IMG/VR virus record: IMGVR_UViG_3300028394_000036
Span: 62,001-126,000 of that record
Source of the DNA: a virus
Strand: one strand, 5' to 3'
Length of the DNA stretch: 64,000 nucleotides
Position 1 is the stretch's first letter. Each line of letters opens with the position of its first letter. A model generated the notes under the pieces. The model saw nothing but the letters and a program-made list of their open reading frames with translations. It was not told the DNA's origin and searched no databases. Below are positions 13,939 to 58,651 of the stretch, in pieces. A program made the position numbers and the translations under genes.

Positions 13939-15534
13939 TTATTTTATCAACCAAGTTAAATCTTCATCGTTTCCATTTACTTCCATTGACCAACCATTAT
14001 CGTTTCCGTTTCCAAAACCATACATTGGCTTGTGTATAGAATTCGCTTTACCAACATAATCCAAACTCATACGAGTTTGTGCCATACCTTCTTTTCTTAA
14101 TTTCATAGCGGTGTCTCGTACCCATAATCCTATTGCAAAAGACATTACTAAATCGTCATTATAACCACGCTGTGCTTCTGCTTTTGCACCATTCCAAATG
14201 AATACATATAATTCTTCAATTAACCTTCTTGAATGAACTATTGGACCCCTTTCTCTGAAGTATGTTTCTAATTTAGAAATTAGAAGTGGACGAGTTTTCG
14301 ATGACGTTGTAAAACCAGGAACCATATTTTGCTTTAATTTTAAGTCATAGCCTTTTGGTAATTGTACCGATGGGTCTACATAACCATCTTCACGGTACGT
14401 ATAATATAGGTTTCCATAATTTCTGTCAATTATTTGTTGAATTGCTGCCCAACCAACATTCGCATTTTCAACAACAAGTAATGCGTCATTATACTCAGTT
14501 GCTATTGAAACTAATGTATTACCATAAGATTTCGTGTCCAACTTGCCTTTATACTCAGCAACTTGTTCTAAACTTTCAACATCAATTACATGGAATGCGG
14601 AGTAATCGTTTCCGTCACCACGTGCAACGTCAGCAACTACAATATAATCTCTCGTTGGGTCTGGATATTTCCAAATCCATAATGCTTCTTCACCACCACG
14701 TTTTTCGAGTGGATCCATTGTATGTGTTTGCTCATACCATTGTACCAATTCCCCATCAACAACTGCACGTCCAGAAGCTAAGAAGTTCCCATCACATTCT
14801 TGTTTAGCCATGTTTGGACCAAGTAGTATATCTTGTTCATCTCGCCATTCTTGATCACGTTCGGGATGGAGTTGCCACAATAATTCTATTGGATTAAATC
14901 CACCCTGACCTAATTTTGCGTCTACCCATTTTTTATGATAAAAATTACCAACACCGTTTGGAGTAGAATTTATAATTGCAGATCCACCTGTTGAAAGAGT
15001 TTGTTGTGCGGAAGCCCATATTGGTTCAATCTCTTCAATAAACGCTGCTTCATCTATCACCAAAAGTGACAACGCTTCAGAACGTCCAGAGTCCGATGCA
15101 GCCGACGCGGCTTTAATCTGTGAACCATTATTAAAACGGAGTGATAATTTATTATCTTCTTGAACTCCTGTCTTTAACCAACTTGGTAAATTATCATACA
15201 TAACTCTAACTTTAGTTACCAAGTTTTTAGCTGTATCTTGTTTTGTAGCAATAACAAGAATATTTTTGTCATTATTAAATAACATCATCCAAAGCGAATA
15301 TCCAGCGATTAACGTAGAAATGCCTAACTGCCTTGACTTGAGTACAATGTTGTAACGGTGTTCATTGAATTCATGTAATACATCTTCTTGGAATGGGTAT
15401 AATTCAAATAACATTTTGCCACGAGTTGGATGTTGAATCTTTGCATATCGTTTCATAAAGTACGCAGGATTTTTAGCACATTTTGCATACTCGTCTTTTA
15501 CAATTTCTTTAAGATTCTTTGGAATACCACTCAT
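13939..15534 (-). CDS. 17: Terminase large subunit, gp17-like
   Basis: A 531-aa packaging motor. The ATPase part has the Q-like segment YPFQEDVLHEF (46-56), Walker A LKSRQLGIST (65-74) and Walker B LSLLVIDEAAFIEE near residue 153. The RNase-H-like nuclease part has VVADVARGDGNDYSAFHVID near 300, LVVENANVGWAAIQQI near 350, and GYNDDLVMSFAIGLW near 460, which together supply its acidic metal ligands. It is shorter than T4 gp17 and lacks an obvious N-terminal extension. No small terminase is in this window. Its start overlaps the stop of the upstream small gene by 4 nt. Confidence 0.96.
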   Translation of the reverse strand: MSGIPKNLKEIVKDEYAKCAKNPAYFMKRYAKIQHPTRGKMLFELYPFQEDVLHEFNEHRYNIVLKSRQLGISTLIAGYSLWMMLFNNDKNILVIATKQDTAKNLVTKVRVMYDNLPSWLKTGVQEDNKLSLRFNNGSQIKAASAASDSGRSEALSLLVIDEAAFIEEIEPIWASAQQTLSTGGSAIINSTPNGVGNFYHKKWVDAKLGQGGFNPIELLWQLHPERDQEWRDEQDILLGPNMAKQECDGNFLASGRAVVDGELVQWYEQTHTMDPLEKRGGEEALWIWKYPDPTRDYIVVADVARGDGNDYSAFHVIDVESLEQVAEYKGKLDTKSYGNTLVSIATEYNDALLVVENANVGWAAIQQIIDRNYGNLYYTYREDGYVDPSVQLPKGYDLKLKQNMVPGFTTSSKTRPLLISKLETYFRERGPIVHSRRLIEELYVFIWNGAKAEAQRGYNDDLVMSFAIGLWVRDTAMKLRKEGMAQTRMSLDYVGKANSIHKPMYGFGNGNDNGWSMEVNGNDEDLTWLIK

Positions 15535-18366: not shown

Positions 18367-20658
18367 TTAACTTTTATCTATGATTTGATAAACTGTTTTT
18401 ATAAATCTTTTCTTAACTGGATCATTTGGGCTATTACCCATTTCCTTGAAAAACGCATTGTAATATTTTTTTAGTGCGTCTGATGCATCAGGTGGTATTT
18501 CATTGTATTGTAACATTTTCAATATTGATTTATCAGTTTCCATTGGAAAATTCGATCTCATTTGTTCTACAAATTCTTCTGCATGAGCACCAATTTCCAT
18601 AGTATCAGACAAATATGTTTTCCAAAAATTTGGATCATCTTGCGATAAACGATTATATGTGGTCGGCTTAATTGTAAAAGAATTTAAAAATTCCTTTACT
18701 CTTTGTACATAATGTATCAACTCATGTGCAATAGCAGGTAAAAATACTTTCTTAACAAATTCTGATATTATACTATCAACGGAAGTTTCAATTGAACCAC
18801 GCTTTGCAAGTTGTATCTTTACAAAGAATGGAACAAATTCAAGTGTGAAATATATTGCAAATTCCATATTATCCAAAGGGTTAGCACCAGAAGTCCCCAT
18901 CGAAGCACCGCCAGAGAACTCATCACTATTTGTAGAAAATTGTGTCAACTCAGAATTAAATTTTGTATAATTTATTTTATTGTTTAATTCATATTCTGAA
19001 TCAAAATCGGTATCAAGTAAATGTTCTATTTCCAAAGAGAATCCTGCATTTTCTTTATCTTTACCATTTTTAAGACAATACTGTAAAACTTTTGTTATTT
19101 CAGGAAATTTGGCATCAAGCGAACCTCCAAGTTCAATATTAACAGATTGTAATTTAATACTATTAGAAATTTTTTCACCATATTTTTTAATATAGTCTTC
19201 GTTTCTAATCCAACGGTTTACAATTGATGTAATATATTGTTGATTTTCAAGTCCAGATTCGGTTTTAGAAACTATAATACTCTTAAATCCATTAAAACTA
19301 GAATCTAATCGTATTAAATCAGCAATTTCCGTAAAAAGTTCTATGGCAACTGGTTCTATTTCTTTCAATAAACCAGTCGGTAATGTTGCTACTTCATTTA
19401 TTTGTTCTACTTCTTCTGTTATAACAGATTCAAATACTTTATCATATTTAATATCTTCAATAGTTATAGAATCATCATTAAATAATATATAATCATTCCA
19501 ATTATTACTTATCCTATTTTTTAAACCATCAACGCCATTATTAAATAAAAATAAAGAAGCGTATTTATCACCACCTAAAATTCTTGATAAAGTTTTGTAA
19601 AATAACCAACCACTATAAGCAAACTTAACAACTTCATCAGAATTTTTACCATACCCCTTAATTGATTCTACAATTTTATTAACTATATCTTCTTCAACTG
19701 GATTCTGTGTGTCTATTAAAACATATTCTTTTTTATCTTTAAAAAGTTTTACTTTATATAAGTAATCACCGTACTGATTGTGTGGTATATTATCAGAAAA
19801 ATAAAGCCCATATCCATATCTTTGTCTATTACTATCAACACTAACATTTGATATATCAAACTTATGAAGATTTTTTGAACTTCTGTGATAAGCTATTATT
19901 TCTTCTGTTATAACAGATTCATATACTTTATCCCAAAACTTTTTTGTTATCATGTGAAGTGGTCTTAACTCGCCTTTCTTTTTCTTTTTTACTTCAATCA
20001 TTTCACCGCGTTTTACATTCATTCTTGCAACAACTGTATTAAAAATCTGAGCATCAAACCAACCAAAAATAGAAATAAAACGAGATTTTAATTCTGTTAG
20101 TTTAGCAGTTCTATCACCCAATGCTTTTTGAATATTTTCTTGATTCATTTGTCCAAAGCTGGGTATATTATAAACAACATGATTTGTAATTACATAATAT
20201 AAATAAGGATTTTGAATATCTTTATAAGGTAAATTAGAAGCCTTATTATACTTAGTTAACCGCTTGAATTCATTTAATTTACCGATATTATCTTTTCCAA
20301 CTGCGTATATAACTACCGTATGTGTTGAATCGAAGTCTTCTAATAATTCAAGTGGATTATAAGGATTTGTTGTTTTAATAACATTCTTTACATTATGACG
20401 TTTCATTATAGCGTTTTTTTCTGCAAACGTAAGTGGTTTTCTAATAGCGTCTTGCATATCATCGGTAACAATATACACACTATCTGAACCAAATCTACGG
20501 CATAATCTATCATATTCTTCTTTATGGTGCAAAGCCATTGGATTAAAAGTACCTGGATATAAAACAATAATCTGTTTATCTACCAAATCATTTTCATTGA
20601 AGATAGCAAGATTCATTTCTTTTATTAATTGTAATACTTTATTTTTCACTTTATGCAT
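18367..20658 (-). CDS. Polyvalent protein: nucleotidyltransferase + ADP-ribosyltransferase + zinc peptidase
   Basis: A 763-aa three-domain protein. (1) Residues 28-240: a cytidylyltransferase-fold domain with GTFNPMALHH (36-45) in place of the usual G-x-F-x-P-x-x-x-GH, and KPLTFAEKNAIM downstream. (2) 254-409: an ART-like domain of the polyvalent-protein type, with AYHRSSKNLHKFD, then YGYGLYFSDN and QYGDYLYKVKL. (3) 417-763: a zincin-like domain with HELIH at 645-649 and a likely third ligand E688 in DTMEIGAHAEEF. The domains are separated by two copies of (W/Y)DKV(Y/F)ESVITEE at 243-253 and 406-416, each containing a possible prohead-protease site (ITE|E). Polyvalent proteins are thought to enter the cell with phage DNA and counter host defences. 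That role is inferred here. The start overlaps the next gene upstream by 8 nt. Confidence 0.8.
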   Translation of the reverse strand: MHKVKNKVLQLIKEMNLAIFNENDLVDKQIIVLYPGTFNPMALHHKEEYDRLCRRFGSDSVYIVTDDMQDAIRKPLTFAEKNAIMKRHNVKNVIKTTNPYNPLELLEDFDSTHTVVIYAVGKDNIGKLNEFKRLTKYNKASNLPYKDIQNPYLYYVITNHVVYNIPSFGQMNQENIQKALGDRTAKLTELKSRFISIFGWFDAQIFNTVVARMNVKRGEMIEVKKKKKGELRPLHMITKKFWDKVYESVITEEIIAYHRSSKNLHKFDISNVSVDSNRQRYGYGLYFSDNIPHNQYGDYLYKVKLFKDKKEYVLIDTQNPVEEDIVNKIVESIKGYGKNSDEVVKFAYSGWLFYKTLSRILGGDKYASLFLFNNGVDGLKNRISNNWNDYILFNDDSITIEDIKYDKVFESVITEEVEQINEVATLPTGLLKEIEPVAIELFTEIADLIRLDSSFNGFKSIIVSKTESGLENQQYITSIVNRWIRNEDYIKKYGEKISNSIKLQSVNIELGGSLDAKFPEITKVLQYCLKNGKDKENAGFSLEIEHLLDTDFDSEYELNNKINYTKFNSELTQFSTNSDEFSGGASMGTSGANPLDNMEFAIYFTLEFVPFFVKIQLAKRGSIETSVDSIISEFVKKVFLPAIAHELIHYVQRVKEFLNSFTIKPTTYNRLSQDDPNFWKTYLSDTMEIGAHAEEFVEQMRSNFPMETDKSILKMLQYNEIPPDASDALKKYYNAFFKEMGNSPNDPVKKRFIKTVYQIIDKS
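19411..19431 (-). repeat. ESVITEE element, copy in second linker
   Basis: One of three copies of a 21-nt sequence identical at every base, encoding ESVITEE and containing the perfect palindrome CTGTTATAACAG. The copy here and that at 19900-19920 are also alike on their left codons (DKV(Y/F)), which suggests a duplicated linker. Confidence 0.85.
19900..19920 (-). repeat. ESVITEE element, copy in first linker
   Basis: Same 21 nt as at 19411-19431 and 57467-57487, at the boundary between the nucleotidyltransferase and ADP-ribosyltransferase domains. Codons for Ser, Val, Ile and Thr are the same in all copies even though synonyms exist. Confidence 0.85.
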
Positions 20659-21103
20659 CCGGTGGATTTGGCCATTCTATTGAAAATGGGTTAGATTGGG
20701 TAGTTATATCACGTAATTCTTGACGATATATTTGCCATTCCGTTTGTTTTTGATTTACTAACGGTGAGTCTGCTAATTGTGTCCAATCAGACTCTAATAA
20801 TTTTTCGTTTCTAATATTTCTAATTGAATTCCATTGCACATTTATATTGTTTTGAATTTCTTCTTCGGTTTTGTTACGAACTTTTTGATACTCAACAACT
20901 TCTGTTTCTTCAATTACAATATCACTGCCGTCATAAACCTGGTTTCCGTTAATATTTGCAGTAACAAATCTATATGGATACCAACCGTATTGTTTTACAG
21001 TCTCAGAATCTAACACATGAAAATTGGAAATATTTGCCCAAATAGTAGGAAGTGGACTTGGATTGCCTATAATTTTATTGTTTTCTACTAATATATAATC
21101 CAT
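20651..21103 (-). CDS. Tail-fibre assembly chaperone-like protein
   Basis: A 150-aa protein. The C-terminal half IRNIRNEKLLESDWTQLADS followed by QTEWQIYRQELRDITTQ and NPFSIEWPNPPDA is the familiar 'R-x-x-L-x-x-(S/T)-D-W ... Y-R-q-x-L-R-D-I' pattern of tail assembly chaperone proteins often encoded beside fibre genes. The N-terminal part is a small polar domain. I start it at ATG 21103, with CGGAA upstream; a TTG at 21136 would add 11 residues. It is the last of the host-recognition cluster and overlaps the polyvalent-protein gene. It probably helps fold or attach a fibre, but which one is not clear. Confidence 0.7.
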   Translation of the reverse strand: MDYILVENNKIIGNPSPLPTIWANISNFHVLDSETVKQYGWYPYRFVTANINGNQVYDGSDIVIEETEVVEYQKVRNKTEEEIQNNINVQWNSIRNIRNEKLLESDWTQLADSPLVNQKQTEWQIYRQELRDITTQSNPFSIEWPNPPDA

Positions 21104-21161
21104 TGATAATTCCGATTTATTTGAAATATGATACAATTATAAATATGTATAATATTTTTTA

Positions 21162-22869: not shown

Positions 22870-25128
22870 TTATGATGTTATTGCAATTACAGTATCATAC
22901 GACCCACCAAAAGCAGCATCTTTTGATATAGATACGTTTGACCAATTTGTTAATGTTCCTATTTGAACAGGTGATGAACGACTTGTGATTCCACCATCAC
23001 CAAGTTGACCATTAGAACCATTCCCCCAAGCCCACATAGTTCCATTTGTTTTTATAGCTATTGTTGTTGAATTTGCTCCAGTATAAACCGTTGACCAATT
23101 TGTTAAAGTTCCTATTTGGACTGGTGATGAACGGTTTGTGGTTGTACCATCACCCAATTGACCATAAGAATTATTTACACCCCAAGCCCAAAGAGTGCCA
23201 TTCGTTTTTACACTCATGGTATATGAACCGTATGCACTCACCTTTGACCAATTTGTTAATGCACCAACTTGAACAGGTGATGAATATGTAACTGTGCTAC
23301 TCAATCCCAATCTACCATTAGCACCCGCTCCCCAAACCCAAAGAGTTCCGTCTGTTTTTACAGCAACTGTGTGACTGTAGCCACACGTTACTTCTGACCA
23401 ATTTGTTAATGTTCCTATTTGAACAGGTGATGAACGACTTGTGATTCCACCATCACCCAATCTACCATTAGAACCATTCCCCCAAGCCCAAAGAGTTCCG
23501 TCTGTTTTTACAGCCATGGTATAATCAGCCCCATGTGCTATTTTTGACCAATTTGTTAATGCACCAACTTGGACAGGTGATGAATATGTAACTGTGTCAG
23601 TATTACCCAATCCTAATTGACCATTTGCATTAGCATGACCCCATGCCCAAAGTGTACCATCTGTTTTTATAGCATGTCTCCAATCTGAGTTTGCATATAT
23701 TTTAGACCAATTCGTCAAAGTTCCTATTTGAACTGGAGATATGTATAGTTTATACGGAATAGAAGTGGTTTCAGTTCCTAATCCAGTAGCTTCACCCATA
23801 CCCCAAAGACTACCAGATGTATTTATAAAAAATGTTTTATTATTTCCATTTGATATAAATGAAATATTACTTATATTTGAAAGTTGTATTGGTGAAGAAT
23901 ATGATAAGGTTGTTAAAGCGTCATAACCAGCTGTTGATCCTCCACCGTAAACGTCACCCGTGGTTGTTAATGCTATAAATGGTCTATTAGTTGTTGTGAT
24001 TTGGTATCTTCTCATCGCTGCTACTTTTGACCAACTTGTTAAAGTTCCAATTTGAACAGGAGATGTATATTGAAATCGGGAAGTATTGTATACATTACTA
24101 GTTTCATCATACAAATAATCCGTACTCTCGCCATTAAAACCGTTAGTACCCCAAGCCCAAAGAGTGCCATCTGTTTTTACAGCCATCGTATGAGAATTAT
24201 CACACGTAATATTTGCAGTCCAATTCGTTAATGTTCCTATTTGAACGGGGGATGAACGACTTGAAAAATCTCCAATGCCTAATTGTCCAGAATTATTGTC
24301 ACCCCAAGCCCACAATGTACCATCTGTTTTTACAGCCATGGTATAAAAATGTCCACACGATACCGATAACCAATCTGTTAGTGTACCAACTTGGACAGGA
24401 GACGAATATGTTGTAATTGTCTCATCTCCCAATTGTCCAGAATTATTTTCACCCCAAGCCCACAATGTACCATCTGTTTTTATACCCATACTATAATTTA
24501 TTCCACATGATACTTTTGACCAATTCGTTAATGTACCAACTTGGACAGGAGATGATTTAGGTATTGTACTACTATCGCCACATTGTCCAACCGAATTTCT
24601 ACCCCAACCCCACAGAGTACCATTTGTTTTTACAGCCATGGTATGACTAGTTCCACACGATACATTTGACCAATTAGTTAATGTACCAACTTGAACAGGA
24701 GATGAATATGTTGTTACAGAATTTAATCCCAATCTACCATTTAAACCCGCTCCCCAAGCCCAAAGAGTTCCGTCTGTTTTTACAGCTATAGTATGCGATG
24801 AAGCTAATGCCACTTTTGACCAATTTGTTAATGCACCAACTTGAACTGGTGATGATATATTGGAGTTTGTATTATTGATACCTAACTGAGCATTGAAATT
24901 ACCACCCCACCCCCAAAGAGTACCATCTGTTTTTATAGCCATTCCAGTAAAATTAGAAGTAGTTATTACCGACCAATTACTAGAAGTGACTACTAATTTT
25001 AACCTTGCATATGTTGTGTTATAATCTAATTCACCATATCTTCCCAAACCCCACCCATATAATTTCGTAGTAGTTACTACGGGAACAGGAGGTGTTTTAG
25101 AAGCATTTATTATTATATTTTTAATCAT
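22870..25128 (-). CDS. RCC1-repeat double beta-propeller adhesin
   Basis: A 752-aa protein made almost entirely of RCC1 repeats of about 50 aa. I count 14, each with the core 'SPVQ(V/I)G-LTNWS-V...H(T)MAVKTDGTLWAWG..NGQLG'. Repeats 7 and 8 are the most degenerate, as expected where two seven-bladed propellers meet. The short N-terminus (MIKNIIINASKTPP) has no signal peptide, and no shaft or trimerisation region is seen. RCC1 propellers bind proteins or glycans. Located downstream of three fibre genes, it is probably a receptor-binding head carried by the tail. High DNA similarity between repeats makes copy-number change likely. AAGG precedes the ATG. Confidence 0.85.
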   Translation of the reverse strand: MIKNIIINASKTPPVPVVTTTKLYGWGLGRYGELDYNTTYARLKLVVTSSNWSVITTSNFTGMAIKTDGTLWGWGGNFNAQLGINNTNSNISSPVQVGALTNWSKVALASSHTIAVKTDGTLWAWGAGLNGRLGLNSVTTYSSPVQVGTLTNWSNVSCGTSHTMAVKTNGTLWGWGRNSVGQCGDSSTIPKSSPVQVGTLTNWSKVSCGINYSMGIKTDGTLWAWGENNSGQLGDETITTYSSPVQVGTLTDWLSVSCGHFYTMAVKTDGTLWAWGDNNSGQLGIGDFSSRSSPVQIGTLTNWTANITCDNSHTMAVKTDGTLWAWGTNGFNGESTDYLYDETSNVYNTSRFQYTSPVQIGTLTSWSKVAAMRRYQITTTNRPFIALTTTGDVYGGGSTAGYDALTTLSYSSPIQLSNISNISFISNGNNKTFFINTSGSLWGMGEATGLGTETTSIPYKLYISPVQIGTLTNWSKIYANSDWRHAIKTDGTLWAWGHANANGQLGLGNTDTVTYSSPVQVGALTNWSKIAHGADYTMAVKTDGTLWAWGNGSNGRLGDGGITSRSSPVQIGTLTNWSEVTCGYSHTVAVKTDGTLWVWGAGANGRLGLSSTVTYSSPVQVGALTNWSKVSAYGSYTMSVKTNGTLWAWGVNNSYGQLGDGTTTNRSSPVQIGTLTNWSTVYTGANSTTIAIKTNGTMWAWGNGSNGQLGDGGITSRSSPVQIGTLTNWSNVSISKDAAFGGSYDTVIAITS

Positions 25129-25137
25129 AGTATAACC

Positions 25138-27726
25138 TTATATATTTTGTCCACCGATAAAACCCATGAAGTTAGTTCCACTATTCAATGAAATAAAACC
25201 AAAAACATCTTTTTTACCGTTTGTACTTGTAAGTGTTGGTGCAGTACCGCCTGGCCACAATATCGATGCACCCCATGAAACAACTCTCGCTGTTCCATCT
25301 GCGGTAAATATCAACACAAATGAACCAGCATTATTTGCAGCGGGTGGATTTGAAATAGTTAATGTTGTTATATTAGCGTTAAGGGCAACATCAAATACAT
25401 TACCGTTTGCTAAATTCAAAGTTAATACACCAGGTGATGGTGCAATTGAAATTCCAGGTGTAGAAAAACGTTCTTCATAATCAATAAAGGTCGGTGTATT
25501 TAATGAGCCAGATAGAAATATACTACCCGATACCGTTACATTTTGAGTTAGTGTGTTTACAAACGATGCAGTTGATGCAAATGACGCTGAAGTTGCAAAT
25601 GATGAACTAACGGCATTCAATACATAAGAAGCGGTTGTTGCTGTTCCTTGTAAAGAACCAGTAAATGATGTTGCATTCACTATACCGTTTACAAGAATAG
25701 AACCAGTTGCAATTATTCCATTTGTTGCTGTTATCGATCCACTATTAACGACTAACGCTGTGTTGTTTACTAAATTAGTACCAGAAATTCTTACTGTTCC
25801 ACTATTAGTATATAAGTTAATAGACGATCCAGTTACCGTGATGTTGTTTCCTAGTGCGTATATACCAGTTGACAGACTTGCCGGTGAACTCGAATTTGCA
25901 TCAAATGTAATATAATTAACATTTGCAATTGAACCACTTACAAATACTGATCCACTAATTGTAACATTTTGAGTTAGTGTGTTTACATATGAAGCAGTTG
26001 TTGCAAATGATGCAGAAGTTGCAAATGAAGAACTCACACTATTACGTACATATGAAGCAGTTGTTGCAAATGATGCAGAGGTTGCAGTTGTTTCAGTACC
26101 GGGTAAAAGACTAGTTATTTCATTCGTAGTTGAATTATAATATAAAGAACCAGATGTATATGATGATGCTCGAATTGGAGCAACATAAAAGCTACCAGTT
26201 TGATTAGCAACATAGTTAATCGTATAACTTCCACTTGCATTTATTACAATTGTTTTTGCAGGTTGACTATTGTATCCGGCGTTACGTCCAATTGCAATAG
26301 AATTCTCACCCAATGACAAAACACCTGCTTGATAACCAATCGCAACAGAGTAATTACCTTGGGCTGAAGTACCAGCTTGATAACCAACAGCGGTTGATCC
26401 CGTACCCTCTGTTCCGGCTGCAGCACCAATTGCAACGCCATACTCACCCTGCGAAGTTGCGCCTGCTGCGTAACCCATTGCAACGGCAAAATTTCCTTGA
26501 GAAGAATTTCCTGCATTATAACCTATTGCAATAGAACTCGTACCATGTGAAGTTTGTCCAGCATTATGTCCAATTGCTATTCTGTTGCCATTTGCATCTG
26601 ATTGTACTTTTACGGTATTTGATAACTTAAATTCACCTGTATTTGGATTTATAGAAGTTGGAGTTGTTGTTGTATCTGCATATAAAGTTTTTCCAGAACC
26701 GGCTCCATCTACAAAAACTGGATAATAAACTGCATTAGTATTATCGTCGGTTATATTCATTGTACTTGGTGGTGGTACATTAAGTACATAAGACGCTGTT
26801 GTTGCAAATGAAGCAGACACTACCGTTCCACTTAAAAAAGATGCTGTTGATGAATTAGTTGCAAATGAAGCAGACACCACAGTTCCACTTAAAAATGATG
26901 CTGTTGATGCAAATGATGCTGAAGTTGCAGTTGTTGCAGTTCCTTGTAATGAACCAGTAAATGATGTTGCTTGTAGTGAACCAGTTATACCATACGAACC
27001 AGTAAGTTGTTTTGAATTTGTCCAAACGGAACCACTTCTAACCAATAAGTCACCATAAGAAGCGGTAGTTGATGTATCTAAAACATTATGCAGTTCATCT
27101 AATTGATAACCATTATCTATTTTTACAAATATAGAACCAACCGATGCATGAACTCGTTGAACAAAACCAACAATAACAGTATGGGTTGGAGAAACCGGTT
27201 TTGTTTGGGTATATCCACCATTCGTACTTAAATATAAAGTAGCACCCGCTGTTAAACCAATCGTATTTAATCCATTAACAACCCCATTTGTAGTAACGAA
27301 TCCTTCTGTTCCTGCAAGAATTGTCTCTGTTATCATACCAATAGTATTCCGTGAACCTTCTTCGGCTGAATTTCCTGCCCTCTTAACAGAAATTCGATTT
27401 CCTTGTGAACCTGAAATATAAACTATTTCACCATCATTAAGAGTTGTTGCTTCTGCATTGTAAACTCTTGCAACTTGTTCTTGTCCTAATTGGAGTGTTA
27501 CATTTCCACCTTTCAATCCTAAATCAAGTGTACCATCACCGTCATTCCAAACAAATCTACCAACTGCACCGGCAGCAGATGATGTTGTATAGAAGTTGAG
27601 ATTATCAACATTGTTTATAGATCCACTCATGGTAAGTGAACCGGATATTATAGAACCATTAGAAGCAGTTACAGACTGAAGATGTGCATGACTACCACTT
27701 GCTACGAGTTTTTTCCAATTAGACAA
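25138..27726 (-). CDS. Tail fibre with YadA-like head repeats
   Basis: An 862-aa fibre. It starts with a TTG at 27726, supported by CGGAG 6 nt upstream. The N-terminus SNWKKLVASGS matches that of the next fibre (ATWKKIIVSGS), so it is probably the tail-attachment piece. The middle has shaft repeats of the type TSASFATTASYV and, at about 390-500, six or more copies of a 14-aa (S)IAIGxNAGxxSQG repeat like the left-handed roll of trimeric adhesin heads. The C-terminus (FTADGTARVVSWGASILWPG and FGFISLNSGTNFMGFIGGQN) is a common phage fibre tip. No S74 domain. It likely acts as a trimeric receptor-binding fibre. Confidence 0.85.
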   Translation of the reverse strand: MSNWKKLVASGSHAHLQSVTASNGSIISGSLTMSGSINNVDNLNFYTTSSAAGAVGRFVWNDGDGTLDLGLKGGNVTLQLGQEQVARVYNAEATTLNDGEIVYISGSQGNRISVKRAGNSAEEGSRNTIGMITETILAGTEGFVTTNGVVNGLNTIGLTAGATLYLSTNGGYTQTKPVSPTHTVIVGFVQRVHASVGSIFVKIDNGYQLDELHNVLDTSTTASYGDLLVRSGSVWTNSKQLTGSYGITGSLQATSFTGSLQGTATTATSASFASTASFLSGTVVSASFATNSSTASFLSGTVVSASFATTASYVLNVPPPSTMNITDDNTNAVYYPVFVDGAGSGKTLYADTTTTPTSINPNTGEFKLSNTVKVQSDANGNRIAIGHNAGQTSHGTSSIAIGYNAGNSSQGNFAVAMGYAAGATSQGEYGVAIGAAAGTEGTGSTAVGYQAGTSAQGNYSVAIGYQAGVLSLGENSIAIGRNAGYNSQPAKTIVINASGSYTINYVANQTGSFYVAPIRASSYTSGSLYYNSTTNEITSLLPGTETTATSASFATTASYVRNSVSSSFATSASFATTASYVNTLTQNVTISGSVFVSGSIANVNYITFDANSSSPASLSTGIYALGNNITVTGSSINLYTNSGTVRISGTNLVNNTALVVNSGSITATNGIIATGSILVNGIVNATSFTGSLQGTATTASYVLNAVSSSFATSASFASTASFVNTLTQNVTVSGSIFLSGSLNTPTFIDYEERFSTPGISIAPSPGVLTLNLANGNVFDVALNANITTLTISNPPAANNAGSFVLIFTADGTARVVSWGASILWPGGTAPTLTSTNGKKDVFGFISLNSGTNFMGFIGGQNI

Positions 27727-27983: not shown

Positions 27984-29372
27984 TTAAGAATATATCCAAA
28001 CACTATCATCAGCTGTGTTAATATACATCTCACCTTTACCATACTCTTGTGCACTAGGTGCGCCGGATGCAAGTTTAACAGTTGTTACATATTCCAATGC
28101 AGTAACTGATGTTGCATTTGTAGCAACACCTTTTGCAACTGCCCATCTACTGTCTCCAATATCATGGTACATTGCAGAACCAGATGCTAATGAACCCGAT
28201 GAAGCAACAATACCTGCATCAAGTCCTATTGCAGAACCAGATGCTAATAATATAAATTGGTCTTCAATATTAACATTAGTAACATTAAGATTAACTAGTG
28301 TTCCGTTAACTGTTAAATCACCGGGAACAACCAAATGATTACCAACGGTAGTTGTTGATGATGCATTTCCAATTGATACAGTAGTTGCATCGGAAGTACC
28401 AATTGCAATTGTTGTTGCATTTGATTGTAATATATTAAATGTACCTGCTGTTGCTGTTCTGATATATGCGCCATTAACAAAAAGTCCACCCGCTGTTGTA
28501 ACTGTACCGTCTGAAGGTTTAATTGTTAAGGTATTTGTAGCAACTTTAAGAGTTTCTGCACTTGTGCCTGTATTGTTTGTTACAAACGGTATCGGAAAAC
28601 TAGTAGCAGCTGCATCGGTAGTAGTATTTATGCTATTTGCATTCGTAGCAAATGAAGAACTAACGGCATTCAATACAAAAGATGCGGTTGATGCATTAGT
28701 TGCAAATGAAGAACTTACACTATTGAGTACATAAGATGCGGTTGATGCATTAGTTGCAAACGAAGAACTTACACTATTGAGTACATAAGATGCGGTTGAT
28801 GCATTAGTTGCAAATGAAGAACTAACGGCATTCAATACAAATGACGCTGTTGATGAATTAGTTGCAAACGAAGAACTTACACTATTGAGTACATAAGACG
28901 CTGTTGTTGCAAATGATGCAGAAGTTGCAGTTGTTGCAGAAGTTGCAGTTGTTGCAAATGATGCAGTACCTAGTAATGAACCAGTAAACGAGGTTGCACT
29001 AACAGATGTAAGACCGGTTATTGTACTTGCAAGTTGTAAAGAATCAGAAGATTCAACTGCTAAGTTAGTGCCTGCTAAATCAGTTAAAAGATTTCCATAG
29101 GTAGTAAATGAGTTAGTACCATCACTTGTGAAAAATTTATCACCGGATGTTAAATTTGTAATTTCAACAGTTGGAAATGTTGCGGTTGCTGTTACGCCGG
29201 TTATGTTAGTTCCATCGCCACTAAAAGAACCAGTGAAAGAACCCGTAAGTTTTGTTGCTGCCTGTGTAGTTCCAATTATTTGTGTTGAACCAACTAATAC
29301 CCCAATCGATGCAGTAACTTGTGCAAGCTCTGCATTACTACCCGATACTATAATTTTTTTCCACGTTGCCAT
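27984..29372 (-). CDS. Serine/alanine repeat tail fibre
   Basis: A 462-aa fibre. The N-terminus ATWKKIIVSGSNAELAQVTA is shared with the 862-aa fibre. Residues about 145-245 consist of five tandem 18-aa units (TASYVLNSVSSSFATNAS), a shaft. The C-terminal part has VSIGNASSTTTVGNHLVVPG and IEDQFILLASGSAIGLDAG, common in marine phage fibres, and ends GEMYINTADDSVWIYS. GGAG precedes the ATG. No chaperone or enzyme domain. It may be an alternative to, or a partner of, the fibre downstream that has the same attachment end. Confidence 0.8.
   Translation of the reverse strand: MATWKKIIVSGSNAELAQVTASIGVLVGSTQIIGTTQAATKLTGSFTGSFSGDGTNITGVTATATFPTVEITNLTSGDKFFTSDGTNSFTTYGNLLTDLAGTNLAVESSDSLQLASTITGLTSVSATSFTGSLLGTASFATTATSATTATSASFATTASYVLNSVSSSFATNSSTASFVLNAVSSSFATNASTASYVLNSVSSSFATNASTASYVLNSVSSSFATNASTASFVLNAVSSSFATNANSINTTTDAAATSFPIPFVTNNTGTSAETLKVATNTLTIKPSDGTVTTAGGLFVNGAYIRTATAGTFNILQSNATTIAIGTSDATTVSIGNASSTTTVGNHLVVPGDLTVNGTLVNLNVTNVNIEDQFILLASGSAIGLDAGIVASSGSLASGSAMYHDIGDSRWAVAKGVATNATSVTALEYVTTVKLASGAPSAQEYGKGEMYINTADDSVWIYS
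28640..28925 (-). repeat. 54-bp tandem repeats in fibre gene
   Basis: Five head-to-tail units of 54 bp encode TASYVLNSVSSSFATNAS with few changes; several stretches over 50 bp are identical between units. Related, more diverged units are found in the 862-aa fibre gene at about 25550-25650, 25970-26090 and 26780-26940. Confidence 0.85.
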
Positions 29373-33571: not shown

Positions 33572-36500
33572 CTACCAATTTATTTTTGAAAATCCATTCT
33601 CTTTCTTAATTTCTATCTGACTATCCACCATATCCCTAACAACATCAATATGGGATATTAGAATAACGAAATCAAACTGAGTTTTAAGATACTCTAAAAA
33701 CATAGAGAAACTCATTAAAACGCCAGAATCTAATGTTCCCAAACCTTCATCAATTGCTATAAAGTTTGGTCTTGGTAAAGAACAGACATTTATAAGTGCC
33801 GCTCTAATTGCTATAGATGAAATAAATTTTTCCATTCCACTAGTTAATTCAAGTGGCCAGAAGTTATCATCATCATACACTATATAAGTATTAATACTCT
33901 TACCATCTGTCTCAAAAATCACTTGAAAATCAACGATTTGAGATAAAATATTATTTGTTTCCGCTTGTATCTTCGGTAAAGCGTCACCTATGAGTGCGTA
34001 CGGAATACCGTTTCTATTTACACATTTCAAATAATAATCATAAGCGAGATATTCTGTTTCAAGTTCTTTTAATTTCTGAATCGATTCATTACAATCGTTT
34101 ATAATTCTTTCTTGTACTTTAATATCACCACTATAATCTATAATCTTTCCTTCAATTTGCTTTAACTCTTTAGTAAACATTAATTTAGAATTCTTAGAAT
34201 CTTCTATAATTTCCATCAGTAAGGAATTTGTTTTAATAGATTCTTCATTTTCTTTATATTTTAATATTCTATTTTGAACATTTACCAAATCTTCTTCAAA
34301 TCCTTTCAATGTTTCTTTATTACTATAAATATTTTTTTCTAAATTAAATACCGTTTTTTGATGAAAATGTTGATCGTTTTCTGACTTCTGTAATCTGTCT
34401 AGTTCAGTATAAACATTAGAATTTTTCTTGAATTCTTTTTCAAGTCCTTCAATTTCAGCAAGTAAATCATTTTTATCTTTATTTAATCCAATTAAACTTG
34501 ATTCTGCTTTCTTTGCATCTTGAACAAACACATTACCAAGACAGAATTTACATTTTGGATCGTACTGATGATTCTTTAAATTATTTACTTTATCTTCACA
34601 ATGTTGAATCTGAAGTCTTATATTTCTCAAATCGGATTCATTCTTAGAAAGTTTTAACCTAATTTCATCAACCATCTTTCTACGTTCTAACAAATCTTCT
34701 TTGTTGAACTCAGAAAGAATTAGCGTATATCTATCAAGACTTTCATTCGCACCTTTTAATTCATATTCAAGTGATTTCATACCGCGAATAGTTTCATCTA
34801 TTTTTCTATCAATTGAAATTTCTTTTTCTAAAAGTGTTTGTAATGAATTAGGCGATAAATTAGAATCTATTTGTATTAATTTATTTTCATTGTCTCTAAC
34901 TGTACTATTCAACTTTTCTATTTTTTCTTCAATTTCAGATTTTTCCGAATTCAAATTCAATAAAATTGTATTTGCTTCATCACGTTTTGCTTCTGCACTT
35001 AATATCTTTGTTGAATAATCCTGTTTACTAAACTCTTTAATAAGTGTACTTACACTTTTGGAATCATCGTTTGCTATTGTATGTAATTCTTCAAACAATT
35101 CTAAATCTAAAAACTGAGCAAGTAAGTCTTTACGTTCACGCTGTGCCTTATCAATAAAATTAGTATTGTTACCCTGAACAGACATTGCAGTTAAAATAAA
35201 GTCATCGTATGTCCCCAAATACTTTCTAATTATACGATTTGTATCGTCTCTGTCCTCACCATTGAGTGAAACTTTGTTCTCTCCATCTAAGTACCAAAAG
35301 TTCACTACAACCTTCACAGCACCCTTCTTGTCCTTAGTTGCAACCCTTTCAATGAAGTAATTACGTTCACCGATATTAAAACTAAGTTTACAGTTGAAGT
35401 TTTCTTTTTTATTATTCATTACCTGAATTGCTCTGTATGTTCTTGGACATTTATCAAAAATACAATACATAAGAGCGTCTAACACAGAAGATTTTCCACT
35501 TGCATTCGGTGCGAATAAACCATAAACACCATTCATAGAATCAAAGTTTACAGAATTACCTTCACCGTATGAAAACATATTATCAAACTTAAAATAGTTT
35601 GGAGTCCAAATTAAATTTCTAACAACATCACTATCATCAACTTGCTTGTTTACGTTTCTGTTTATTTCATAAATACGTTCTAACAATGCAGTATCAGTTG
35701 GTAACTTATTATTTTTAATGTAATCAGAAATTAATGTGTTCTGATATGCAATATCTCTAATATCACCTAATTTATTGTGTGAAGTATTTCCTGCTTCCGA
35801 TGAACCACCGACTCTTTGTACTTTAACATCAAGAACATTTGCTAATGATTTTATCTCGGTAATGACTTTATGAATGTCCGAATTAGATGTATTAATTGAA
35901 TGTAAGCGTACGTAATTATTTTTTGAAAATTCGTCTGGTAAGTTTTTAATTTTTCCATCTTCAACCTCAATTGTGTGGTAAGTAAAATCATTTTTTATTT
36001 CTACAAACTTCGATGTACCATTGGTTAAATTCCATTCAATTACACCGTGTTTTAAGTCTTCCCCAAAGTTTTGTTGTATAAGTGAACCTGGATAAGCAAA
36101 ACGTTTGTTTGAATCTAAATATTGAAATCTGTGAATATCACCAAAGAATCCATAGTCAAATCCCTCAAATAAATCAATAGTAACATCGGTATTATGTAAC
36201 TTCATACCTGTATCTGTTTCTGCTGCATTAATCGCACCATGATAAAGAACTATTTTCTTTCTACCGTTATCTTCTAAATCCGATGCTTTAATAAAGTTCT
36301 TAGTATCATCGAATACTGAATTTACCACAAAGTCTACGTTACCCATTGGATAAACGCCAGTTTCTTTGAAATAAAATAAATTATTATTGTTATTAAATGA
36401 ATTGAAAATTGGAGTTAAAGAATCCATTCGGTCTTTATTATTCAAGTTGCAATCGTGGTTTCCTGCTATAAAAAAAGTAGTTGCTATCTCAGATAAATTT

Positions 36501-36718
36501 AATAAAAAATTTCTCGTCATTTCTATCAGTTCTGGACTCATATCTGTTTTTGCGTGAACAATATCACCCGCAACATAAATCAAAGTATTTTTATGTTTAC
36601 TAACAGTTTCACGGCAATAATCGTATAATCTATTAAATACTATTTCATATTCTTCATGGCGTTTATAATTTCTAATATGTACATCAGCTATGTGTATAAC
36701 TCTATGTAAGTTAAGCAT
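33572..36718 (-). CDS. Fused Mre11-Rad50 (gp47-gp46) recombination nuclease
   Basis: A 1048-aa single polypeptide. Residues 1-340 are an Mre11/SbcD nuclease: IADVHIRNYKR (D12, H14), YVAGDIVH, IAGNHDCN, then VLYHGAI and FFGDIHRFQY, giving the metal ligands in order. Residues 375-1048 are a Rad50/SbcC ATPase: Walker A APNASGKSSVLDAL near 404, long coiled coils around a zinc hook PKCKFCLGN near 719, signature ELTSGMEKFISS near 954 and Walker B PNFIAIDEGLGTLDSG near 984. In T4 these are two proteins that resect DNA ends for recombination-dependent replication. All catalytic motifs of both are kept. It overlaps the primase end by 8 nt and has AAAGGA upstream. Confidence 0.95.
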   Translation of the reverse strand: MLNLHRVIHIADVHIRNYKRHEEYEIVFNRLYDYCRETVSKHKNTLIYVAGDIVHAKTDMSPELIEMTRNFLLNLSEIATTFFIAGNHDCNLNNKDRMDSLTPIFNSFNNNNNLFYFKETGVYPMGNVDFVVNSVFDDTKNFIKASDLEDNGRKKIVLYHGAINAAETDTGMKLHNTDVTIDLFEGFDYGFFGDIHRFQYLDSNKRFAYPGSLIQQNFGEDLKHGVIEWNLTNGTSKFVEIKNDFTYHTIEVEDGKIKNLPDEFSKNNYVRLHSINTSNSDIHKVITEIKSLANVLDVKVQRVGGSSEAGNTSHNKLGDIRDIAYQNTLISDYIKNNKLPTDTALLERIYEINRNVNKQVDDSDVVRNLIWTPNYFKFDNMFSYGEGNSVNFDSMNGVYGLFAPNASGKSSVLDALMYCIFDKCPRTYRAIQVMNNKKENFNCKLSFNIGERNYFIERVATKDKKGAVKVVVNFWYLDGENKVSLNGEDRDDTNRIIRKYLGTYDDFILTAMSVQGNNTNFIDKAQRERKDLLAQFLDLELFEELHTIANDDSKSVSTLIKEFSKQDYSTKILSAEAKRDEANTILLNLNSEKSEIEEKIEKLNSTVRDNENKLIQIDSNLSPNSLQTLLEKEISIDRKIDETIRGMKSLEYELKGANESLDRYTLILSEFNKEDLLERRKMVDEIRLKLSKNESDLRNIRLQIQHCEDKVNNLKNHQYDPKCKFCLGNVFVQDAKKAESSLIGLNKDKNDLLAEIEGLEKEFKKNSNVYTELDRLQKSENDQHFHQKTVFNLEKNIYSNKETLKGFEEDLVNVQNRILKYKENEESIKTNSLLMEIIEDSKNSKLMFTKELKQIEGKIIDYSGDIKVQERIINDCNESIQKLKELETEYLAYDYYLKCVNRNGIPYALIGDALPKIQAETNNILSQIVDFQVIFETDGKSINTYIVYDDDNFWPLELTSGMEKFISSIAIRAALINVCSLPRPNFIAIDEGLGTLDSGVLMSFSMFLEYLKTQFDFVILISHIDVVRDMVDSQIEIKKENGFSKINW

Positions 36719-41505: not shown

Positions 41506-44500
41506 TTACCAATTCAATCTTATTTTTATTAAAATATCGTTTTCTTTTGTTTTCTTAATAGGTTTACTCAACTTTGCAATAGCCAATAATTCTCTGTCTT
41601 TATTATAAAGACCAATCGTTGTAATGTAAGTCATAGGATCATTTATAAAACACGCATTCTTTATTTTACCTATGTTAGCAGAGTCATCATAAGTATATGT
41701 TGGATTGTTACTATAATTAGAATCACTATTTGCAACTCTCACGAAGTAATGATTTGTAGTTTTTCGTGTAACACTTCTTGCTTGCATTGGATAACCCATT
41801 GCAGCAGCACCACTTATTGAAGTAAATAACTTATAAGAATTGTCACCTAAAATATTACTACCAGTAACAGTATTAAATGTCAAATAAGAATTTAATTTAG
41901 AAGAATCTAATACTATAACACCGAGATTTGGATATACTTTACCATAAGTTGTAATCGCTAAGTTAGTATATATACTACCAGTACCACTAGAATGTACACC
42001 AGAACTTATACTTCCACTAACAATATCATAATAAGTTGTTTCTGTGTCTGAACATACCGTATCACCAAGTATTTCTGATGAATTATCTATAAGTGATAAT
42101 ATAATTGGAGTTGAACCTGAAACTTTAACCTTACTACCAGTATGTTGTGAATTCACTATTCCACTACCAGAAAGTGCAGCTAAATTTATTTGAAAATTAC
42201 CAACATTTAATTGATCGCTTATTCCGTTTCTGTTAAAGTTTATAACGTAAATATCATTGGGTGTTTCAAGTGTTCCACTATTATAGAATGAATAATATTT
42301 TTCTGTAGATTCCATTGATAACAATCTATATTGAGAATATATCGCTCTCGATACACTATCACGATTATTATATCCAGTTGCTAAAGAACCAGATCCATTG
42401 TGATTACCGTAAGTAACAGCAAAATAAGGCGTCTTACCACACGTATCACAATCAGTTACTTCATAATAATATGCCGTTGAAGCAGTATATTGTGTTGAAC
42501 TTGTATAATAACAATCAAGTGACGCTGAAGCACCAAACAATCCACGCTTAGTGTCTTTAACCACCGCAGTTAAAACGTCAGTACCAAATAAAAATGGATG
42601 TTGTACTTTATTTGCTTTATCAAAGCAATCGTCTTTTTGTCTTGTTGCACCTGTCAATTCTTGACCGTCTGTTAATCCGTATGGATTTCTTGCTATATCA
42701 GTTGGTGCGGTTGGTTTAGTAGCTCTCTTTCTTTCTTTCTTACGTTTATAGTATCCGTCACCTAAAATTGGGTGATCGTACGATAATGCTGGATAAGTAA
42801 GGTAATTTGTTCTGACTTCAATCTCTGTACATCCACATGGATTAGTTGGATCTGTCTTATATTCAGTTTCAAAGTCTTTTGTTATAAATTGTTCACACTC
42901 ACCAAATGGATTAAATTGAATACTATCATACGCAATAAACGTACCGTCATCTGGCTGTCTGGATGGTATATTCAAAGCCATAACAACTTCATCTAATGCG
43001 TAATAATAACCATCAGTTGTTGTTAAAAATTTACCAGTATCGCTCTTTAATGCAACAATTGGAATTGAGTTTGGTAACTTACCATTTAATGCATCTAACA
43101 TATACTGATAACCAATATCAGACTCTTTTCTATATGGAAGTTCTTGCTCAGTTATTCTACACTTTATTTTAAAAATACGAATTCTTTTTCTTTTTACTCC
43201 ACGTTGAAATCTAGATAAAATACCAGTTAAACATGGATTTGTTGGTAAAGCTATTCTTGTTTGAATTAAAGAACCATCATCAAACGCTTCAAACGCTAAG
43301 TAAGGAGAATATCTTGTAATACCTTCATTGTAAATTGCAAGCATTAATCCAGTATCATCTACATAACCAGGAGTACCATCTCTCTTTTTGATAAGACCGG
43401 CAATGATAGGATAATCAACATAGCTAGATTCAAAAGTCTCGTTCGATAACTCAGAATATACTGCCCAATATTCTCTATTGGCACAGTCGTTAGAAGTAGC
43501 AGGTGGAACACCACTACCCCCACCACCTTGTGTTGCTGTACAATCAGATACACCAGACGCTCCTGTGCATTTAGCGTAAACAGCACCATTCTCTGTTTCG
43601 ACTAGCAACCCACCACCAAACGCATTAGCATCTTTCTTTATGTCTGTGTCTGCCAAATATACTGCTTGATTCAATAAGTGTTCTAACTTACCCATAGCAC
43701 CGGAATTTACTATATCTGTCTTCCATTGATGTGTGTGATCTATTTCTCTAATCTTTGCATCAAATGTAAAACTTTTAGGACTTGCAGCGAGCCATGCTGC
43801 ACAATCTGTTTTCCAGCCATCTACAACAGGATTATTATTAACAAATACTTTTATATTATTTTTTAAGTTTTCATTTATATATTCTAAATCATTGAAGCCA
43901 GCAGCGTCAGTAACATTTAATGCTGTATTTATACCGGCGGATACTTCATCAAAATCATAATAATACTGCCAAGTAATTCTATCTTTATTTGGATTGCCTG
44001 GACAAGCATCCTGTTTGTAAGCGATTTTAGAAGTTGCTACTATTTTATCGGTTGCAATCAGTTCTGGAGTTGGGAATAAATTTTGACCTGATGTAGAACA
44101 ACATCTCCAAATATCAATATATAATTGACAAGGTCCAGGTATTGTTACTCCACTAATAGAAGCTTTCTGTGTAGTTTGCTTTTGTTTCACCGTAAACGTA
44201 TATCTACATGCAGCAACACCAGTTGTGGAAACAGCACCAGTTGTGGAAACAGCTCCAGTTGTGGAAACAGCACCAGTTGTAGAAGCAGCACCAGTTGTAG
44301 AAGCAGCACCAGTTGTAGAAGCAGTACTAGTTGTTGTACTAGTTGTTGTTGTAGCTACGTATAATGCAGGAGCATTTAAAAAATTTGAAATTAGTCTTTT
44401 AGTTTCGTCATACGATCTAATACGTAATGTATCATTAGTACCCGCTATTCCTGCTGGAGATGTCAATTCAGGAGAATTTATTATATTAACGTACTTGTCA

Positions 44501-56770: not shown

Positions 56771-58651
56771 TTATTTCTCAACTATATCGTCATATATACT
56801 TTTCAGAGCAGAATTTAATTTTCCTGTATTTTTTGATGTAATTTTTTTATAGTAATCGTTTACTGCAGGAGTTCTTCTAAATTTACCATTCAATTGTGAT
56901 ATTACTTTTTGTGGTTGTCCAGTAGGAGTACATTTTAATAGTCCAAATAGTCCATCTTCACCAAATTTCCAAATAGTAGTAACTTTAACTGTCATATCAG
57001 TTCCGTTTGCAGCAATACCACCATTTGTATTTCCACCCATGTGAACACACGTACCATCTGGATTTAAGAATATCAACATTTCCACGTGACCACCTTTACT
57101 TACAATAGCTGTTTCCCACCCACAAGTTAATAAGTGCCGTATTAAAGCAAGTCCTTCTTTAGTCATACCATTCGCAGTATAGTGATATTCTTCCCAAAAA
57201 AAGCAAACAATTGGATCTGGTAAATATTTTTCATAAACTGTTATTGGTAACTTTGGTCCAGAAAGTGTTGTTGTTTGTTTTATCTTATAATCCAATAAAA
57301 TCGGATCACCTGGTCCAGTTGTACCATCTGGATTTGTAATTGTAGTTTCCTGATACTGATCAAGTAGGGTTGGGTCGGTAGATAAACCATCTTCATCTAT
57401 TTGTCCTTCTACTTTTTGTCCTCTTTTAGTTTTTTTTCCAACTTTTAAATTTTTTGTTAGAATTTTTTCTTCTGTTATAACAGATTCTTGCGCTTCTGTT
57501 TTGAAATAGAATGCTCTAGCTCTAACAGCATCCGCACTTGATCTACCAGCAAAAGAAATTTTATCAAAACCAGGTACTAATTGTTCTTTACCATTTATTA
57601 TACAAGCAGGTACTCCTGCAAAACCACCGCCTTCTGGAAATGGTATTTTTTTTGAATGATTCCATCCCGCTCCATTACCTGCTGCAGCTCCTGTTACAGA
57701 TGTACCTTTAAATGCTTTATATTTACCGGCTCTAACATAAAAATTAGTAGAAAGTCCGCACCACCAAGGTTCATCTGCCCAAGTTGCATTTTTACCATGT
57801 TTACCACCATACGTTCCAATTGTAAATTCACCACCCTTATTATATACAGACATAGTCATCATCATCAATTGTTCGGTATTTTCTTGTCCAACATAAGGTA
57901 CTATTGGATTCCATATACCAGTCTCTGGAAAGTTTAGAAATAACGGAACATCTATAACACCCTGTGGTCCCTGTGTAAATCCAGTTGCTCCACTATATAA
58001 AGTAGTTTCCGAAGCATTAAATTTATATGGAACAAAAAATTGAATTGGTCCAGCCCATTGTTCTAATTCCCATTTTGGAAAGCCCGAACCTTGCGGGTTC
58101 GCGTTAACGCCTCGATACGCCCAATATTTTCCACCTAATTTTCTATCGACTCCATAAACTTTTTTTACCCAAGGATTACCCGCAAGACTCACATTCTGCC
58201 ATATAAAATTCCAATTAGCAACTTGGTAATTTGTAACACTTGTACCTGCTGGTGGTTGAGTATTACTTCTTGATAATTCTATACTTTTTTGGTCAGTCAT
58301 TGCAGCACTTTGTTCAACATTTTCATCCGCCTTTGCAGGTGTTGTATTGGATTTTTCCTTAGCTTCATTTTTTTCATTTGGTGTAACAACAGGTGGTGTA
58401 ACAACAGGTGGTGTAACAACAGGTGGCGTAACAACAGGTGGTGTAACAACAGGTGGTGTAACAACAGGTGGTGTAACAACAGGTGGTGTAACAACAGGAG
58501 TTGGTGTTGGTGTAGGTGTTACAGTAGTTCCTTGACCTACATTACTATCACCACCTCTATCTGGATCGTAATCTATTAATATAGTTTTTCTTTCAGAATT
58601 ACTAACACTTGGATTTTCATCTTCAACATCATACAATATAAGATCTGCCAT
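56771..58651 (-). CDS. CHAP/NlpC-like cell wall hydrolase with proline-rich linker
   Basis: A 626-aa protein. Residues 1-42 are an acidic N-terminus; 43-91 a VTPPV repeat linker; then a large domain. The cysteine-peptidase features are WADEPWWCGLSTNFYVRAGK (C298) and, much later, SKGGHVEMLIFLNPDG (H522) with MGGNTNGGIAANG (N541). The C...GHV...(E/G)GNTN pattern is that of CHAP-type peptidoglycan hydrolases. About 100 more residues than usual separate Cys and His, including ESVITEE at 389-395. By location it would be a tail-associated lysin at the baseplate hub, replacing the lysozyme of T4 gp5. The family call is moderate; cleavage site role is inferred. Confidence 0.6.
   Translation of the reverse strand: MADLILYDVEDENPSVSNSERKTILIDYDPDRGGDSNVGQGTTVTPTPTPTPVVTPPVVTPPVVTPPVVTPPVVTPPVVTPPVVTPPVVTPNEKNEAKEKSNTTPAKADENVEQSAAMTDQKSIELSRSNTQPPAGTSVTNYQVANWNFIWQNVSLAGNPWVKKVYGVDRKLGGKYWAYRGVNANPQGSGFPKWELEQWAGPIQFFVPYKFNASETTLYSGATGFTQGPQGVIDVPLFLNFPETGIWNPIVPYVGQENTEQLMMMTMSVYNKGGEFTIGTYGGKHGKNATWADEPWWCGLSTNFYVRAGKYKAFKGTSVTGAAAGNGAGWNHSKKIPFPEGGGFAGVPACIINGKEQLVPGFDKISFAGRSSADAVRARAFYFKTEAQESVITEEKILTKNLKVGKKTKRGQKVEGQIDEDGLSTDPTLLDQYQETTITNPDGTTGPGDPILLDYKIKQTTTLSGPKLPITVYEKYLPDPIVCFFWEEYHYTANGMTKEGLALIRHLLTCGWETAIVSKGGHVEMLIFLNPDGTCVHMGGNTNGGIAANGTDMTVKVTTIWKFGEDGLFGLLKCTPTGQPQKVISQLNGKFRRTPAVNDYYKKITSKNTGKLNSALKSIYDDIVEK
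57467..57487 (-). repeat. ESVITEE element, copy in the CHAP-like gene
   Basis: Third copy of the 21-nt sequence found at 19411-19431 and 19900-19920, identical at all positions. Here it lies in the insertion between the catalytic Cys and His regions. Flanking codons are unlike the other two. Confidence 0.85.
58382..58500 (-). repeat. 15-bp tandem repeats encoding VTPPV
   Basis: Eight head-to-tail copies of a 15-bp unit (plus-strand GGTGTAACAACAGGT) with one base change (GGC for GGT) in the fourth. They encode a rigid proline-rich spacer. Copy number may vary by slippage or recombination. Confidence 0.95.

Follow-up and report, generated by a model that had tools for sequence, protein, structure and literature searches.

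A stretch of viral DNA of 64,000 nucleotides (IMG/VR record IMGVR_UViG_3300028394_000036, positions 62,001 to 126,000, hereafter the window) contains, next to fibre genes, a gene made of RCC1 repeats. Two questions are raised by this locus: (i) what does an RCC1 protein do for a phage; and (ii) how does its number of blades change in the course of evolution. The RCC1 fold by itself reveals no function (Ran exchange, chromatin binding). A sequence-only reading of the window had described a whole RCC1 gene of 14 blades, two of them degenerate in the middle, i.e., two seven-blade propellers, together with near-identical DNA repeats of about 150 bp that would allow blades to be exchanged and receptor binding to be diversified.

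The gene is a single ORF whose coordinates, strand and content are as first read (Table 1). Its 752-aa product is RCC1 almost end to end, as seen with Pfam PF00415 (E 4.3e-107, 351 bits vs. a cut-off of 21.7) and with the RCC1-like domain PF25390 (E 4.7e-133). The NCBIfam scan gave no useful match for this protein or for the product of the neighbouring TPR/GT9-like gene (hereafter GT). When the protein is cut at the SPVQ boundary, 14 blade boundaries span aa 41-718, i.e., 13 full units plus the N- and C-terminal halves, which would form blade 14. The 14 boundaries thus mean 14 blades if these two halves pair. Units 7 and 8, in the middle of the protein, are degenerate, in agreement with the first description.

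The tandem DNA repeats have the expected period, ~150 nt (150-189 nt). Their identity is much lower than had been claimed: units in register are 45-80% identical and the longest exact common stretch is 36 nt, so that «near-identical» is wrong for the window gene. In free register, the best ungapped pair of 150-nt blocks reaches 81%, and one 132-nt pair, off the unit register, reaches 90%. Other in-gene tandem repeats of the window are found at 44217-44334 (18 nt, 94% match), 58379-58498 (15 nt, 98%) and 61574-61668 (24 nt, 83%).

An AF2 model of the window protein was built from a 27-sequence alignment (window protein plus 26 relatives) and has a pLDDT of 81.8 and a pTM of 0.59. An alignment-free model, built on the single sequence, was discarded (pLDDT 32). 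With VIA-align, the alignment-based model matches UVR8 (PDB 6xzl) with Z 48.3 (1.9 A, 336 residues, model range 48-410) and HERC2 RLD2 (7q40, chain A) with Z 48.0 (1.8 A, 348 residues, range 20-752). Both are seven-blade RCC1 rings; they differ from the window protein in being single rings, from eukaryotic proteins with unrelated roles. Structure prediction, which had been put forward as a check, is consistent with two seven-blade RCC1-like rings.

The path of the chain through these rings can be drawn in two ways. On the one hand, the match ranges of the model suggest a nested path, i.e., one ring at about residues 42-411 and another closed by both ends of the protein. On the other hand, two relatives suggest rings in tandem: L009 has a stretch («Ig-like» by reading of the sequence) inserted between strands 2 and 3 of unit 7, and the Pro-rich linker of L107 occupies the same position, i.e., where two tandem rings would meet. 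The 7+7 arrangement holds under both paths; pLDDT is low around the joint. The two propellers are supported by boundary counts, by the linker position in relatives and by the model. Among 38 multi-propeller proteins, the joint unit is the phase with the lowest repeat score in 18, which makes it the commonest phase, far from universal.

Table 1. Features of the RCC1 locus (positions in the window; the limits of propellers 1 and 2 apply if the rings are in tandem).
Feature	Position	Strand	Comment
Tail assembly chaperone (Phage_tail_APC)	20651..21136	-	
Methyltransferase, 211 aa	21162..21797	-	present in part of relatives
TPR/GT9-like protein, 338 aa	21801..22817	-	relatives directly downstream of RCC1 genes; putative class, from relatives
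RCC1 gene	22870..25128	-	752 aa, single ORF, 14 blade boundaries
Propeller 2, aa 396-752, if rings in tandem	22873..23943	-	boundaries, model, relatives' linkers
Degenerate unit 8, aa 412-463	23740..23895	-	
Degenerate unit 7, aa 356-411	23896..24063	-	joint between rings
Propeller 1, aa 20-395, if rings in tandem	23944..25071	-	boundaries, model, relatives' linkers
N-terminal peptide, aa 1-19 (starts MIKNIIINASKTPPVP...)	25072..25128	-	putative docking peptide
Upstream fibre gene, 862 aa	25138..27726	-	YadA-head repeats and C-terminal tail-fibre tip domain
Fibre tip domain, aa 766-858	25153..25431	-	phrog_9017-like; forms fusions with RCC1 in L029 and L163

Blade boundaries were counted in the complete ORFs longer than 250 aa of loci L001-L121; a further 36 loci were left uncounted except L123, which was read. 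The count is a multiple of seven in 100 of the 118 distinct complete RCC1 ORFs: 61 ORFs have 7 boundaries, as expected for single rings, 28 have 14, three have 21, six have 28, one has 42 and one has 49. For ORFs with nine or more boundaries, 39 of 49 are multiples of seven (binomial 2e-24, assuming evenly spread counts and independent ORFs, whereas these ORFs are not independent); when the ORFs are clustered at 60% identity, this holds for 25 of 34 clusters. The same is found for 45 of the 52 distinct complete proteins of the GT slot, whose genes contain 1, 2, 3, 4, 6, 7 and probably 8 propellers. For ten of the 49 ORFs with nine or more boundaries, the count as it stands does not divide by seven. 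L050 has 55 counted boundaries with one double-length gap (106 aa), and 56 is likely; L033 also has a double-length gap, and L069 begins at a contig edge. The counts of L007, L008 and L021 have no such account. It should be added that L011:1872 scores 21 with two irregular spacings: it is included in the 100 of 118 and in the 39 of 49, and was dropped from the joint-phase and propeller-matching analyses; the latter also left out L008, L021, L033 and L108:3901. The comparison of blade number among relatives, another check proposed at the outset, thus gives one to about eight propellers; blade number is not constant and falls mostly on multiples of seven.

These counts bear on the exchange or copying of single blades via near-identical 150-bp repeats, which would diversify binding. 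The tandem 150-nt period and the 132-nt pair at 90% would fit such a process, but window units do not exceed 80% identity in register and counts fall in sevens. Moreover, 35 pairs whose GT identity is 93% or more were listed, and in 31 of them the RCC1 lengths lie within 28 aa of each other, which is shorter than one blade. Of the four remaining pairs, three (L055, L056 and L057, each vs. L061) oppose a six- and a seven-propeller gene on repeat contigs and amount to one comparison; the fourth involves the contig-edge ORF L069. In L055 (42 boundaries) and L061 (49), GT is 97.4% identical and the difference is one propeller: the first five propellers pair off one to one along the gene, and propeller 6 of L055 is equally similar to propellers 6 and 7 of L061 (0.58). 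One pair favours a change at a smaller scale: L092:1870-3735 and L112:363-2462 are 99-100% identical around the gene and differ inside the repeats (12 vs. 13 boundaries plus a broken unit), but this difference may be either a real sub-propeller event or a misassembly. Exchange of single blades is very unlikely on these grounds; it is unsupported for the window gene, and most changes in copy number involve whole propellers.

The diversification of receptor binding is plausible. The dN/dS of RCC1 is higher than that of GT in 11 of 11 pairs (0.53, 0.73 and 0.55 vs. 0.07, 0.09 and 0.08 for the first three pairs), i.e., the RCC1 protein changes faster than its neighbour. The values for RCC1 stay below 1 and could reflect weak constraint. 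In six pairs, the changes are densest at positions 35, 38, 48, 18 and 37 of the unit, and rare at P2, G6, W11, W31, W33, G34 and G42. These variable loop positions suggest that the window protein may bind a receptor.

The fibre gene lies 10 bp upstream of the window RCC1 gene and its product ends, on the C-terminal side, with a phrog_9017 tail-fibre domain. A 54-nt repeat (5.1 copies, 28638-28911) is also found within a protein of the fibre region. An HMM of the tip domain was run over loci L001-L121, redundant contigs included, and found 63 ORFs: an RCC1 gene follows 50 of them immediately and 4 at a greater distance, 2 contain RCC1 themselves as a fusion (both on L029), and 7 have no downstream RCC1, one of which (L009) overlaps an over-long RCC1 call. 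Since RCC1 or GT served as the query to retrieve the loci, this adjacency is in part a product of selection, unlike the fusions. L163 adds two more fusions of the tip domain to RCC1, one of them with 14 boundaries, leading to four fused ORFs on two contigs. Other tail or fibre-like regions occur in RCC1 ORFs: the tail domain DUF2460 within the same ORF as RCC1 repeats (L033:6888-10871), a collagen-like plus Ig region (L038), a TIG region (L035) and a fibre-like beginning (L034), «collagen-like» and «fibre-like» being readings of the sequence. RCC1 is thus genetically linked to fibre genes by adjacency and by four fused ORFs, and the phage origin and fibre neighbourhood first reported are upheld and strengthened by the fusions. 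Judging from the fusions and the slot, some phage RCC1 proteins at least would be parts used in host recognition. The N-terminus MIK[ND]I...K is common to many slot proteins, from 14 to 55 counted boundaries.

A quite different role has been proposed in print. Eukaryotic RCC1 binds nucleosomes, and PHROGs labels RCC1 as «chromosome condensation», filed under DNA metabolism. Phage RCC1 proteins are already known from virions, where they are read as DNA-packaging proteins. Mass spectrometry of GAP32 virions detected its RCC1 protein, and several such proteins are encoded by 121Q and PBEC04 (PMC5259590). phAPEC6 has eleven RCC1 proteins, for which the authors suggest DNA ordering (PMC7247149), and W70 has three (40-43 kDa), found in virions by mass spectrometry and read by the authors as possible DNA-packaging proteins (PMC11370258). 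In a comparison of fEgEco12 and Ecwhy_1, which belong to one species, two proteins named for chromosome condensation rank with the most divergent (PMC13070987). W70, GAP32, 121Q and phAPEC6 are comparable to the present phages in having RCC1 proteins, in several copies per genome. The W70 proteins differ in their single-propeller size and in their DNA-packaging reading, and the available parts of these papers describe neither fusions to fibres nor a series of propellers. The proteins of W70 and GAP32 are distant relatives of the window protein, for which mass spectrometry attests presence in the virion and not a position within it. The virion of phage CBB also contains a propeller protein (CBB_552, PMC5259590), but it is Kelch, not RCC1.

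A role of the window protein inside the head, where it would order or condense the phage DNA as proposed for phAPEC6 and W70, has little probability. The name given by PHROGs, the proposals of these authors and the binding of nucleosomes in eukaryotes are in its favour, but RCC1 is fused to fibre domains and occupies a slot between fibre and chaperone, and its dN/dS is high relative to its neighbour. The window protein has 40 K+R vs. 35 D+E and the family a median net charge of +1 (n=100 proteins), i.e., no clear basic DNA-binding character, though the pI of the window protein is 8.6. Among the matches listed in searches of open-access papers, none describes RCC1 at the tip of a fibre or blade counts in sevens.

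The gene order is kept in relatives: fibre with tip domain, RCC1, TPR/GT9-like enzyme, sometimes a methyltransferase, and tail-assembly chaperone. The window TPR/GT9-like protein itself has no Pfam match. Glyco_transf_9 matches 6 of its 12 phage relatives, weakly (best E 0.03), and a sulfotransferase domain is present in 3 of the 12, i.e., in the longer GT genes of L006, L019 and L028. In the bacterial control set, Glyco_transf_9 matches 5 of the 6 relatives scanned, 3 of them above the cut-off. The search of solved structures with a profile of the GT alignment gave mostly weak TPR matches.

The GT-profile scan was restricted to the best 80 of 585 relatives. RCC1 is directly upstream of GT in 65 of these 80; in the remaining loci, GT is at a contig edge (8), or RCC1 is elsewhere (6) or absent (1). 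When distinct GT of this best 80 are considered (n=71), the corresponding values are 59, 7, 4 and 1. In the bacterial-genome control, RCC1 is found in 6 of 80 loci, the other 74 being without RCC1. These six loci are the most similar to the GT query (36-47%) and may be phage contigs in bins. The RCC1-GT pair thus marks a phage clade.

Such a conserved GT9-like partner, the sulfotransferase domain of three relatives and the 26% Ser+Thr of the window RCC1 protein would also fit a glycan module: the enzyme would decorate the adhesin or the fibre (or the host surface), and a sugar coat, not bare loops, would govern binding. This is rather unlikely, though less so than the two rival readings above, since the protein is only weakly assigned to GT9 and may modify the host surface instead. 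Among the papers listed for phage-encoded glycosylation of virions, none was of use here.

The whole set is also found in a cultured cyanophage, Synechococcus phage BUCT-ZZ01 (ON615601.1), where a GT homologue (41% identical) directly follows an RCC1 gene with 14 boundaries and the fibre has the same tip domain at its end. It differs by a short hypothetical ORF between fibre and RCC1, and its annotation mentions merely a BNR repeat and hypothetical proteins. The terminase of the window (13939-15534) most resembles that of Microcystis phage Mel-JY01 (63.6%), then those of Flavobacterium immuto phages (54%). Neither Mel-JY01, the nearest isolate by terminase, nor the immuto phages gave a match in the RCC1 or GT searches; the lack of a match in Mel-JY01 implies that the module is dispensable or replaceable. 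Elsewhere in the window, a 1048-aa ORF (33572-36718) matches both SbcC-like and SbcD-like PHROGs.

Taken together, the window RCC1 protein is probably a virion adhesin of two seven-blade propellers at the fibre tip, in a family that expands by whole propellers and not by single blades. The adhesin would most likely be docked at the tip of the adjacent upstream fibre, perhaps via its short N-terminal peptide, and the exposed blade loops would bind the host surface. Lineages would gain or lose whole propellers in one slot, from one to about eight, which would alter how many binding faces there are, and of which kind, without opening any ring. It is an even call whether this can be extended to a general picture, i.e., fibre tips in which one to about eight closed seven-blade propellers are strung together, with whole rings added or removed in a fixed slot beside a dedicated sugar- (sometimes sulfate-) transferring enzyme, the N-terminal docking peptide remaining much the same. 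RCC1 as a host-recognition part would correct the annotation of many phages. The propeller series would offer a natural test of how a repeat protein changes size with each ring closed, and a test of propeller number against host range.
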